From positions 1,798,001 through 1,862,000 of the forward strand of contig NZ_CP021059.1 of assembly GCF_002119805.1 (NCBI RefSeq): a stretch of DNA of 64,000 nucleotides, written 5' to 3'. This stretch comes from Macrococcoides canis. Its GTDB lineage: Bacteria; Bacillota; Bacilli; Staphylococcales; Staphylococcaceae. Below, piece after piece: positions 3,117 to 58,120 of the stretch. The position numbers were made by a program, and so were the translations under genes. The first letter of the stretch is position 1; each line of letters opens with the position of its first letter. The notes beneath the pieces are model-generated. The model was not told the DNA's origin, did no database searches, and worked only from the letters and a program-made list of their open reading frames with translations.

Positions 3117-3129
3117 GGTCGTACATCAG

Positions 3130-3398
3130 GTCGTGACACGAGCGTTTAGACACGAAAAAAATCATGAAAAGGCGGAAGGAAATGGTTTTTGTTTCCATCC
3201 GCCTTTTTGATTTTTCGAAGTGTCTGCTCGTGGAACGCCGTCAATAAAAAGTCGTGACAGAAGTGTTCTGCCACAAGCGAAACCCGAACGAGGCAAAGAA
3301 AATGCTCTTTGTTTTCTGCATCGTTCGGGTTTTGTCGTAGTGGCAACTTCTGGAACGCCGTCAATAGCTCGTGACACGAGCGTTTAGACACGAAAAAA
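3130..3398. repeat. Modular long-hairpin repeat array 1 (A, B, partial A)
   Basis: Two units of about 116 bases lie head to tail between the convergent prsA and yhaM genes: unit A at 3130-3245 and unit B at 3251-3366. A third partial unit (3369-3398) runs directly into the yhaM terminator. Each unit starts GTCGTGACA and ends AACGCCGTCAATA. Each folds as a long imperfect hairpin: unit A has outer arms CACGAGC...AGACAC and an inner AAAGGCGGA/TCCGCCTTT stem, unit B has an inner CCCGAACGA/TCGTTCGGG stem. The same modules recur in opposite orientation at 18993-19381. No coding function is supported. Confidence 0.85.
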
Positions 3399-3441
3399 TA
3401 AAAAAGACGGGAAGAGACATACAATGTTTCTTCCCGTCTTT
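3399..3441 (-). terminator. Terminator of yhaM
   Basis: A 13-bp stem (AAAGACGGGAAGA with TCTTCCCGTCTTT) on the minus strand is followed by T-rich sequence and begins only a few bases after the yhaM stop. It abuts the partial repeat unit. Confidence 0.82.
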
Positions 3442-3445
3442 GCGT

Positions 3446-18947: not shown

Positions 18948-18953
18948 TCAAAT

Positions 18954-18997
18954 GAAAAAGAGAGGCTAAGACATATGTCCTGGTCTCTCTCTTTTTT
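18954..18997 (+). terminator. Terminator of the nitroreductase gene
   Basis: AAAAGAGAG pairs with CTCTCTCTTTT around an inner GACATATGTC palindrome, ending in six T that run into the conserved repeat end motif. Confidence 0.78.
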
Positions 18998-19381
18998 CGT
19001 GTCTAAACGCTCGTGTCACGACCCATTGACGGTGTTCCACGAGCAGACACTTCGAAAAATCAAAAAGGCGGTTGGAAACAAAAACCATTTCCTTCCGCCT
19101 TTTCATGATTTTTTTCGTGTCTAAACGCTCGTGTCACGACCTTTTATTGACGGCGTTCCACGAACAGACACTTCGAAAAATCAAAAAGGCGGTTGGAAAC
19201 AAAAACCATTTCCTTCCGCCTTTTCATGATTTTTTTCGTGTCTAAACGCTCGTGTCACGACCTTTTATTGACGGCGTTGCAGAAGTTGCCACTACGACAA
19301 AACCGGATCGATGCAGAAAACAAAGAACATTTTCTTTGCATCGTTCCGGTTTTGCTTGTGGCAGGACACTTCTGTCACGAC
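18993..19381. repeat. Modular long-hairpin repeat array 2 (partial A, A, A, B)
   Basis: This 390-base stretch between the convergent nitroreductase and ppk genes contains no gene. It repeats the modules of 3130-3398 in inverted order and orientation: a partial end motif (18993-19022), two nearly identical A units (about 19025-19141 and 19146-19262) and a B unit (about 19266-19381). Units A share the inner AAAAAGGCGG/CCGCCTTTT stem and units end CGTGTCTAAACGCTCG then TGTCACGAC. The B unit touches the ppk stop. Short frames read through it are shadows of the repeat. Confidence 0.87.
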
Positions 19382-19383
19382 CT

Positions 19384-21561
19384 TTAGTTACGTTTTAGTT
19401 TGTTCTTCACAAATCCTAATACTTTCGCACGTTTACTCATCATCGGTTTATGTACGATTTCTTTCGGTTTGATCAATGAACGTTTAAATTCCTCTGCTCG
19501 ATACATCAATTCATCTTGTGAATTAATCGCACGTGCATCATTTCTTACATAATGATAGATACCATTTGAATCCTGTTCACGTGCTTTTTGATTATCTTCT
19601 AACTGCAGATTTAATATATCCTTCAACTCTTCTACAATCTTATTATCGATAATCGGGAATAAGATTTCTACACGTTTAATCATATTACGTGTCATCATAT
19701 CTGCTGATGATAAGTACATCTTCTCTTCTCCGTTATGATAGAAGTAATAGATTCTTGAATGCTCAAGGAATCGTCCTACAATGCTGATGACACGAATATT
19801 TTCACTTACTCCAGGAATTCCTGGTTTCAAGCAGCATATCCCTCGAATAATCAGTTTTACTTGAACACCGGCGTTACTCGCTTCATACAGCTTCTTAATT
19901 ACCGTCTTATCTGTTAACGAGTTCATCTTCGCGATGATCAGTCCATTGCCATACTGTTTCTGACACTCGATTTCCTGATTGATATGTTCAATAAATTCAT
20001 CACGAATCTCAAATGGTGCAACATGCAGTCGCTTATACGTCGGTTTCTCAGAATACCCGCTTAAATAGTTGAAGAAGTTCATCGCATCTTCGCCAATTTC
20101 TTTATTCGTTGTGATGATACCCATATCTGTATAGATCTTCGCTGTCTTATCATTGTAGTTTCCTGTACCTAAGTGTACGTAAGGAACGATTTCATCATTC
20201 ACTTTCTTAACGACTAACGTAATCTTACTATGTGTCTTTAAGTGCGTCATACCGTAAATAACGTGACATCCCGCTTCTTCAAGCATGCGCGCCCAGTGTA
20301 CGTTGTTTTCTTCGTCAAAGCGTGCTTTCAGTTCAACAAGTACTGTAACTTGTTTCCCCGCTTCAGCTGCATTCTTAAGTGCATCGATTATCGGAGAATC
20401 ACTTGATACACGGTATAATGTCTGTTTAATTGCAAGTGTATTTGGATCTTCTGATGCATCTTTTATAAAATCAACGATCGGCTGGAATGACTCATATGGG
20501 TGATGAAAGAATACATCACGCTTTAATGCTTCAGCATAAAGATTGCCGTCCCCAAGATATTTCGGTGGACATGGTTCAAATGGCTTGAAGGCAAGTTGCG
20601 GATAACGTTTCTCTATCATTCCTGATAGCTGGAACAACATCGTTAAATCTAACGGTCCTTCAAGCTTGTATACATCACGGTCTTCAATCTCAAGTTCATC
20701 CTTCAGGAATGACGCATTGATCGAAGCATCGTGTCGCGTATCAATTTCAAGACGCACTGCTGCACCACTTTTACGTTTCTTAAGAAACTTCTCTATTTCA
20801 ATCAGCAGATCCTCTGCACCATCTTCATGAATCGTTAAATCTGCGTTACGTGTAATACGGAAAGTAAATGTACGCGTTACTTGATAGCCGTGGAACAACT
20901 TATCGATAAAATGTGTGATGATATCTTCCAGTAAGACATATACTGTTTTTTCACCATTCGTTAATTCAATAATTCGATTAAGTAAAGCTGGAATCTGGAC
21001 GATCGCTGATTTCTTTTCGCCAGCATCCGTTACTACATCTACAAATATATTCAGTGATTTATTAGATAACTTCGGAAACGGTCTGTACGCATCTATACCA
21101 AGCGGTGTTAATGTCGGAAGAATCTCGAAGTTAAACTTCTTTTCAACGATTCTATAATTTTCTGGTGATAATTCATCGACCGATTTGAAGTATACGTTAT
21201 ATCCTTCTAGATCACGAATTAACGCATGATATTGATCATATTGCATCTTCACGTTATCTCTATTTGCCTTATCAATCGCAATCAGCTGTTCTGTCGGTGT
21301 CATCTGTGTCTTATTCTCAGGTTCGCTGAATCCCATCGTTACTTGATCTTTCAGACCTCCAACACGAACCATAAAAAATTCATCTAAGTTTGAACTGGCG
21401 ATCGCTAAAAACTTAATGCGCTCTAGTAATGGATTCTTCTGGTCAAACGCCTCTTCTATAACTCTACGGTTAAATCCAACCCAGCTCACTTCGCGATTAT
21501 TATAATATGCTTTATTTCCTAAATCTATATTCTGATTCATCATCATCACATCCACTTTCAT
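19384..21561 (-). CDS. ppk1: Polyphosphate kinase 1
   Basis: A 725-residue membrane-associated or cytosolic enzyme that makes polyphosphate from ATP. The usual four-domain order is seen: N-terminal helical domain with [13 protein letters not shown], head domain, and two phospholipase-D-like C-terminal domains with histidine motifs (TLYR then [37 protein letters not shown]). The start is uncertain: ATG 21561 is first, but GTGGATG lies ahead of three tandem ATGs at 21546, 21543 and 21540. It follows ppx by 34 bases, so synthesis and breakdown of polyphosphate are encoded together. Confidence 0.95.
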
Positions 21562-55697: not shown

Positions 55698-57446
55698 TTA
55701 ATCAACACTTTCTAAGTTTTGAATAGAATAAAGATTATAATAATGTTCGTGCTTTTGCATCAATTCCTGATGCGTACCCATCTCAACAATTTCACCGTTT
55801 TGAACTACAACAATCTTATCTGCATGTGTAATTGTCGATAATCTATGTGCAACGATCACTGTTGTTCTATCTTGAGATAATGACTCTAATGCTTCTTGAA
55901 TCACCGCTTCACTTTCAAGATCCAGTGCACTTGTCGCTTCATCCAGTATAAGAATCGGTGGATTCTTCAAGAATACACGAGAAATTGCAACACGCTGCTT
56001 CTGTCCTCCTGATAACTTAACGCCACGTTCACCTACTTCTGTATCATAACCGTCCGGTAAACTCATAATAAAGTCGTGGGCATTTGCGAGTTTCGCAGCC
56101 TGAATCATCTCTTCTTCCGTCGCACCAGGCTTACCTAGCAAGATATTATTACGAATCGATTCAGAGAAGAGAATATTGTCCTGCATGACCATTCCTATTT
56201 GTGTACGTAAGCTTTCCAGTGTATAGTCTTTAATCGGATGATGATCAACAGTGATTTCTCCTTGTGTAACATCATAGAATCTTGGTATTAAACTGATCAT
56301 CGTCGATTTACCACCGCCGCTCATCCCAACAAATGCTACCGTTTCACCGCTTTTAATATCCAGATTAATATTGTGTAATACTTCTGTATCACCTTCATTG
56401 TACTTAAATCCAACATTGTTAAATGAAATATCTCCTTGGTGAATCTGAATATCTCGTGCGTTCTTCGTATCTTTAATATCATACGGTTCATCAAAGAGCT
56501 GGAACATACGGTCCATCGATGCCATGCTTTGTGTTAATGTCGTTGATGAGCTGACCAGTCTTCTTAGCGGGCCATAAAGCCTGTCAAGATAGGCGATAAA
56601 TGCTGCCAATGCACCGACTGATAGGTGGCCACCAACAACTTGCCAGGCACCAAAGCCTACTACAAGTAATGGTCCGATATCTGTAATCGTATTGATCACT
56701 GCGAAACTTTTGGCGTTCCATCTCGTATGATTCATCGCTTTATTCAAAAAGTTCTTGTTGCGTCTATCGAACCTTTGATTCTCCTCTTCTTCGATGGCAA
56801 ATGTCTTGATCAGTGTCATACCTTGAACACGTTCATGCAGGAATCCCTGTACTTCTGCCAATGACTGACTGCGTTCACGCGTAAGCTTACGTAAGTTGCC
56901 GAAGAAATAGTAGACACTGAACATATAGAATGGAAAGACGATCAATGACACTAGTGTTAACTTCACATCCATCGTAAACATGATGGCAAGTGCAATAATG
57001 ATCGTAACTAAGTCCAGCCATACATTCATCAGACCAGTGATGATGAAATCTTTCGTCGATTCCACATCATTGATAACACGCGAGATGACTTCTCCAACTT
57101 TATTGTTAGCATAAAATCTTACGCTCAGTGCCTGAAGATGTTTATAGAGTTTCTTTCTGATATCGTATAAAATCTTGTTGCTTGTCCACTGTGCGAGATA
57201 CTGTCTGAAATACTCAACCGGCGGACGGATAACTGTGAAGATAAAGCCGAACAGTAATAAGGCTTGCAGTAATGCTTCTTTCTTCTCTGCGACTGACAAC
57301 GATGTGTTATTGATGACATCATCGATAACATATTTAATCAGTAATGGTATTAATAATGGAATCCCAAACTTTAATATCCCTATAATAATCGTCAAGATAA
57401 TCAGCATCGTATAGGGTTTTACAAATTGCATATAGCGCTTTAACAT
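55698..57446 (-). CDS. ABC multidrug exporter, Sav1866 (YgaD) homologue
   Basis: A 582-residue half transporter: six membrane spans (residues about 1-315) followed by an ATPase domain. The sequence follows S. aureus Sav1866 closely from the first residues ([10 protein letters not shown]) through [20 protein letters not shown] to the C-terminal YSIQNL. Walker [10 protein letters not shown] near residue 375, signature [13 protein letters not shown], Walker [13 protein letters not shown] and switch His AHRLST are all intact. It acts as a homodimer. AAGGAGA before ATG 57446 rules out the earlier in-frame start at 57467. It lies beside ygaC as in B. subtilis. Confidence 0.95.
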
Positions 57447-57486
57447 ATTATTCTCCTTCAATATCATTCTTCTTTATTACTCAATC

Positions 57487-57538
57487 AAAAAACCGAACAA
57501 TGCAGAAAACGACATACATTTTCTTCACACTGTCCGGA
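57487..57538 (-). terminator. Terminator of the DUF402 gene, related to repeat unit B
   Basis: CCGGACAGTG and CATTGTTCGG arms with an inner AGAAAA/TTTTCT stem, followed on the minus strand by six T. The core (GCAGAAAAC ... TTTTCTT ... CCGG) resembles unit B of the hairpin arrays. Confidence 0.7.
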
Positions 57539-57568
57539 TTTAACAAAGAGGATTACTGCTCTGTATCC

Positions 57569-58120
57569 TTAATCTTCGCTGATTCTCTTTTGAAAATGAA
57601 ATCTTTCCTGCCAGACTTTAATAAAGTCCGGAGCAAATGGTCCTTTCTTTCTTTCAATCCATTGTTGCAAAATATCAACGTTTCGCCTAAGGATCAAATC
57701 GATCTCTTCGGGATAGTTCATCTGTTTCATGTGCTGCTGATATTCATCTTCATCAAGCAGATGATACTTGCCATTTGGATATACTTTAATATCCAGGTCG
57801 TAATCAATGTACTTAATGGCCTCACTATCACATACAAATGGTGAGGATAAGTTACAGTAATAATAGACGCCATCTTCACGGAACATACAGATGACATTAA
57901 ACCAGTATTCTGCATGAAAATAGACGATTGCAGGTTCACGTGTAACCCAAGTTCGACCATCGCTCTCAGTTACAAGCGTACGATTATTCCCTCCGATAAT
58001 GACATGATTTGTTCCTTTTAAAATCGTTGTTTCAGACCAGATTCTGTGAATTTTCCCGTTATGTTTATAGCTTTGAATCTGCACATTCTGGCCTTCTTTT
58101 GGTATGGATTCTTTGACCAT
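57569..58120 (-). CDS. ygaC: DUF402 domain protein (YgaC type)
   Basis: A 183-residue protein of the DUF402/UPF0374 family, related to nucleoside phosphatases and nucleases. Characteristic stretches are [20 protein letters not shown]-type [41 protein letters not shown] and [14 protein letters not shown], with the acidic residues D-x-D and E used for metal binding. AGGTGG eight bases before ATG 58120 sets the start. It lies directly upstream of the Sav1866-type gene in the same direction, but its own terminator separates them. Confidence 0.87.

Follow-up and report, generated by a model that had tools for sequence, protein, structure and literature searches.

A folded repeat of about 119 nt at gene 3' ends in Macrococcoides canis and across two bacterial families

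In this study, we describe a family of structured non-coding repeats of about 119 nt in Macrococcoides canis. That the family exists and has the fold described here is as good as certain. Our main reading, to which we give a probability of roughly 0.55, is that the repeat is a mobile element whose niche is the stretch separating a stop codon from an intrinsic terminator. Interspersed hairpin repeats are a kind of element already known; unusual are the fold common to two bacterial families, the strand-specific conservation, the position next to stop codons and the absence of any evident mobiliser.

The window, a stretch of 64,000 nt, contains two arrays, both of which we read base by base. Their units are about 119 nt long and stand head-to-tail on one strand in each array. 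Array 1 (3127-3398, + strand, order A, B, truncated A) lies between a gene for a PrsA-type foldase (+) and yhaM (-), array 2 (18992-19384, - strand, order B, A, A, truncated A) between a nitroreductase gene (+) and ppk (-). An earlier note on this DNA had located both arrays correctly on opposite strands, with array 1 beginning at 3130, whereas the covariance model has its first unit start at 3127. The note had also called them mirror copies; they are inverted with respect to each other, but the order of the units excludes an exact mirror. The features are given below, with matches to R1, a covariance model built on 22 diverse units of this genome.

3127 to 3245, + strand: full unit of type A (R1 match of 117.7 bits; fold), with an outer GG/CC base, a 7-bp stem 1, a 4-nt GTTT bulge, a 6-bp stem 2 AGACAC/GTGTCT, an internal loop, an A/T stem and an inner GC hairpin
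3248 to 3365, + strand: full unit of type B (R1 match of 119.7 bits; fold), with the outer frame of A, stem 1 CAGAAGT/ACTTCTG, bulge GTTC and stem 2 TGCCAC/GTGGCA
3368 to 3398, + strand: truncated unit, 5' arm (L) of type A only (BLAST, 100% to query positions 2-31)
3403 to 3441, no strand assigned: hairpin AAAGACGGGAAGA...TCTTCCCGTCTTT fused to the truncated unit, 3' of convergent yhaM (fold of 3368-3445, z -7.0), read as the predicted intrinsic terminator of yhaM
19267 to 19384, - strand: full unit of type B, with which array 2 opens right behind the ppk stop codon (R1 match of 117.6 bits; fold)
19146 to 19264, - strand: full unit of type A (R1 match of 116.3 bits)
19025 to 19143, - strand: full unit of type A (R1 match of 114.7 bits)
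18992 to 19022, - strand: truncated unit, 5' arm (L) of type A (BLAST, 100% over query positions 1-31)
18954 to 18998, no strand assigned: hairpin resembling a terminator, located 3' of the nitroreductase gene and joined to the truncated unit (sequence; fold of 18950-19023, z -3.0)

The outer frame GTCGTGACA...GGAACGCCGTCAATA is common to types A and B and the inner stems differ, as the earlier note had seen. Its observation that the outermost partial module is joined to a terminator also holds: each array closes with a truncated unit, reduced to the 5' arm, which runs into a terminator-like hairpin beside the convergent gene. A simple terminator scan of the arrays gave weak candidates only. 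Elsewhere in the window, a weak match (57440-57570, - strand, 27.5 bits, model positions 34-86) is probably the decayed inner hairpin of a unit.

Each full unit folds as a single long hairpin, as had been proposed, with z scores of -6.6 to -8.9; none of 200 dinucleotide shuffles folded as well. The sequence varies strongly among the copies of the genome, and subfamilies have little stem sequence in common. Still, the anatomy of all full units, judged by eye, is alike. At its base stands RAGG/CCGTTTA with a 1-nt bulge. Stem 1 follows, then a 4-nt bulge GNTY in the 5' arm, stem 2, the internal loop GAGC/GTCGAA, a stem that varies and, at the apex, the loop GNTYTTT. Among 61 units of less than 85% identity, near-invariant letters are found at the base (AGG...CCGT), around the 4-nt bulge (G16, G18 and T20, with G23 and its partner C at 100%), at two letters of the internal loop, the C and G of its GTCGAA side, and in the GNTYTTT loop at the apex.

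Covariation supports this fold. Across 22 units of this genome, 95.1% of the alignment cells are paired and 23 of 32 pairs show double-sided changes, counts in which many copies are recent relatives and the cells are not independent events. The covariation score is 0.493, as compared to 0.185 for shuffled and about 0.1 for slid controls. The result was repeated on 98 sequences and on 58 mostly enterococcal sequences outside the building sets of both our models, in alignments which were fitted to the model structure and lean towards it. Moreover, the fold is specific to one strand. In well-paired columns G.U pairs outnumber A.C by about five to one (148:24, 114:27 and 70:13 in three alignments, the first two of which have loci in common). 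In the genome of M. canis the complementary strand reaches no more than about 30 bits with the covariance model, full units roughly 57-124. Covariation beyond shuffled and slid controls and a strand-specific wobble, the two marks by which we tested for a structured element, were both found.

The G.U asymmetry indicates that the strand running from the L to the R end is kept as a folded single strand. This strand is probably RNA, the likely form since the unit follows the stop codon in sense in most arrays. Strand-asymmetric C-to-T mutation or single-stranded DNA, instead of selection on RNA, could account for part of the excess. The excess is lower (17:10 versus 203:41) in the few contexts in which neighbouring genes are antisense only. 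Such contexts make up 6 of the 38 arrays of this genome and 16 of 86 in a second set, so that the folded strand need not be transcribed at every locus. On balance, we slightly favour a role of the folded repeat at the RNA level.

Concerning the position relative to genes, the enrichment between convergent genes anticipated by the earlier note is present: 26 of 38 arrays lie in convergent gaps, as compared to 7 of 37 intergenic gaps in the window (Fisher p = 2e-5), and none of the 38 in a divergent gap. Of 25 convergent arrays, 21 have their L end 0-12 nt after the stop codon of the same-strand gene, where random placement within the same gap predicts 5.8. Other genomes behave alike, with the L end within 12 nt of a stop codon in 36 of 45 convergent arrays (7.1 expected) and the R end almost never near one. 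The difference between the two ends gives the order stop codon, units, truncated unit or terminator, opposite gene. Placement is looser at enterococcal loci. Replication-strand bias was not seen by eye, assuming oriC near base 1 (16 arrays leading, 22 lagging).

Such a position would also suit tandem bidirectional terminators, reinforced by local duplication and insulating convergent genes from each other. The convergent enrichment, the terminator-like hairpin at the close of the arrays and the A-tract/GC-stem/T-tract form of the A-type inner stems fit this explanation. Yet a terminator needs neither a GNTY bulge nor a conserved internal loop, an apical heptaloop or a fold fixed across two families, and same-direction gene contexts are common in the 86-array set. 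We regard it as very unlikely. A cis-acting regulatory RNA domain of the 3' UTR, selected copy by copy at each locus and binding a protein or sRNA to set mRNA stability or 3'-end processing, would account for an RNA-like conservation of the bulge and of the internal and apical loops, for the G.U excess and for units directly after the stop codon. Against selection at each locus stand the neighbours of unrelated function (PrsA, YhaM, nitroreductase and polyphosphate kinase in the window), the gain and loss of copies at one gene between sister species and the antisense-only contexts, and we consider it rather unlikely. A two-way transcription barrier, protein binding and recombination, put forward in the earlier note, are candidate functions at most.

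The family is widespread. The covariance model finds 46 units at E <= 1.5e-10 in the 2.36-Mb genome, and unit A or B as BLAST query matches dozens of places, so that the modules are not single-copy outside the window, in line with the earlier note. The family is present in all nine genomes of the genus and in 41 of 108 genomes of the Staphylococcaceae, in three of five genera. Staphylococcus species are among them, a pattern scan naming S. pasteuri, S. rostri, S. petrasii, S. americanisciuri, S. pseudintermedius, S. pragensis and S. croceilyticus. In 399 genomes spread over the class, a second model has matches in two families only, the other family being represented by 72 of 105 genomes and 13 of 17 genera. 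We infer that it is the Enterococcaceae, because units are carried by plasmid records that bear the names E. faecalis and E. faecium, along with a few of Lactiplantibacillus (L. plantarum). The full length of a unit plus its terminator, used as query, is matched in plasmid records of E. faecalis. Strand-specific conservation of the fold, precise placement at stop codons and this taxonomic breadth are additions to the earlier note.

In the plasmid search, the window array and one B-type copy gave no match. Among phages the window array again had none, and of three unit patterns two matched no viral contig and the third matched two. Ninety records labelled Listeria phage, among them LM 4-11-1 / 4-14-1 (OR848733.1, OR846889.1 and similar), carry units of enterococcal type; those listed are unannotated and look like bacterial contaminant contigs. 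An enterococcal-type unit also occurs in plasmid records of Klebsiella, E. coli and Pseudomonas (CP069369.1, OL539428.1, NZ_CP151545.1), which mislabelling, contamination or transfer of DNA may explain. Arrays of about five units mixing stem types (L278 1559-2161, L329 1501-2094, L333) are good material for recombination history.

Very probably the family is mobile and has moved recently. In sister genomes, the orthologous gap often has no repeat but a plain terminator; prsA-yhaM and rplS in two genomes of the genus (G004, G008) are such empty sites. Several near-identical B-type copies are flanked by the complementary arms of a host terminator (AAAAAGGTA/TACCTTTTT, CGACAAA/TTTGTCG, AAATACC/GGTATTT), which means that the element occupies a terminator stem; in several copies it has replaced the apex of the host terminator. 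Empty sites and host-arm flanks fit the idea, put forward in the earlier note, of a spread by intrinsic terminators. The origin from terminators suggested there is borne out in part: in appearance, the truncated modules are units that have lost their 3' part and are fused to terminators, but the full unit is an older element, common to two bacterial families. Within arrays, tandem copies are near-identical, and spacers at the left edge reappear at the internal junctions in a locus-specific manner (AAAGAAAGGACG, AACAGAAGG, AAATAAAAAGG), which suggests that units were duplicated in tandem on the spot. As a route of spread we tentatively propose, from junctions read by eye, that template switching takes place between terminator hairpins. 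A palindromic apex GAGACTTATGTCTC is common to several host terminators (G000 1015252, L201, L210, L226, L228) and is a possible source of homology for exchange between them. At 1395544 and 1428733 of the M. canis genome (G000; L179, L180) one unit occurs twice, 33 kb apart, with flanks identical as far as read, which suggests a recent duplication.

Mobility in trans, of a MITE-like DNA element moved by a hairpin-targeting transposase (IS1272/TnSha1-like) or a Y1 transposase (REP/IS200-type), has precedents. IS1272 and TnSha1 target staphylococcal terminator hairpins with blunt deletions and no target duplication (PMC4923244), and the replaced host apices described above would agree with this. 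Likeness to the present family lies in the target and in the loss of part of the hairpin; the difference is that IS1272/TnSha1 encode a transposase and are far larger (TnSha1, 3022 bp) (PMC4923244). No copy of the repeat was seen carrying a transposase gene. PF05598, which we take to be the marker domain of IS1182/IS1272-type transposases, was not found in G000, G001, G003, G005, G006 and G007, which include most of the copy-rich genomes. Y1_Tnp (PF01797) was not found in eight of the nine genomes of the genus, these six among them. A reverse transcriptase (PF00078) is present only in G000, G006 and G007 within the genus and absent from the copy-rich G003 (62 matches) and G005 (46 matches). 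The one reverse-transcriptase domain of G000 (C1 481293-481811, open frame of 556 aa) is missing from most relatives. On this phyletic pattern we reject IS1272/IS1182-type, Y1 and reverse-transcriptase partners as general mobilisers. A transposase may have been lost after the spread, be plasmid-borne or lack PF05598; even so, we think a transposase-moved element improbable.

Only one published lead resembles the family. Efa-1 of E. faecalis was described in 2008 as an intergenic repeat of 163 bp with about 65 copies and a predicted pair of adjacent hairpins; in the accessible part of the source it is an anonymous single-genome family from a stem-loop survey, with no mechanism given (PMC2267715). 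By description, size, copy number and double-hairpin shape are those of about one unit plus the following terminator (PMC2267715), and Efa-1 may be an earlier sighting of the family. Beyond this lead, no clear description was found in the literature on Macrococcus, Staphylococcus and Enterococcus. The family is uncatalogued and absent from the Rfam release searched. No match reached the gathering score at the window units or in 12 staphylococcal, enterococcal and Lactiplantibacillus loci, apart from an unrelated T-box, and in 11 loci of the M. canis genome relaxed thresholds gave nothing but sub-threshold matches. For the 'ssNA-helix' motif there was neither an Rfam match nor a paper in the literature searched. 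A reading as integron attC-like sites, considered for the bulged hairpin and the array form, was dropped as no attC core-site pair was seen. BOX elements are modular and structured, are not known to have a transposase of their own, and probably differ from the present repeat in modules and sequence. Compared by description only, BOX of Streptococcus pneumoniae and the present family are alike in being interspersed intergenic repeats (PMC3049150). STAR elements are likewise staphylococcal intergenic repeats in arrays of variable copy number, built on a 14-bp direct repeat T(G/A/T)TGTTG(G/T)GGCCC(C/A) (PMC3532100). That core is absent from the modules of both window arrays, in agreement with the earlier note, and the two are not identical. 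A STAR-like hairpin (e.g. ...TGTGTTGGGGCCCC) is nested in the 3' arm of units of S. pasteuri and S. croceilyticus:

L236 6553-6730: unit with nested STAR-like hairpin
L244 6704-6882: unit with nested STAR-like hairpin
L254 1104-1277: unit with nested STAR-like hairpin

Comparable matches of 170-250 nt occur in G070, G096 and G104, and hairpin repeats seem to insert into one another.

In the mobile-repeat reading that we prefer, the kept strand would act as RNA in the 3' UTR of the upstream gene, where a trans-acting factor would recognise its fold through bulge and loops. A copy would arrive at a new terminator when two terminator hairpins undergo exchange or template switching, the flanks of the inserted element becoming the arms of the host stem; tandem duplication would then multiply it on the spot. 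Often the last unit in an array would lose its 3' arm, and the remaining hairpin would take over or share termination. The spread would follow a perhaps host-driven route without a dedicated mobility protein. The element is probably mainly selfish, sited where insertion harms least. A further suggestion, which we hold with considerable doubt, is that the fold itself is what is propagated, as RNA or single-stranded DNA. The family would then be a non-autonomous terminator-niche element of Staphylococcaceae and Enterococcaceae, recognised by way of bulge and loops; host or other machinery, with no dedicated transposase, would copy it from one terminator to the next.

If our reading is true, it becomes testable how a structured repeat moves between terminators with no transposase found alongside. 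Many genomes in two families of medical and industrial importance would then hold up to dozens of RNA-like copies at gene 3' ends. This would bear on the annotation of 3' UTRs, on the interpretation of Term-seq data and on strain typing in Staphylococcus and Enterococcus.
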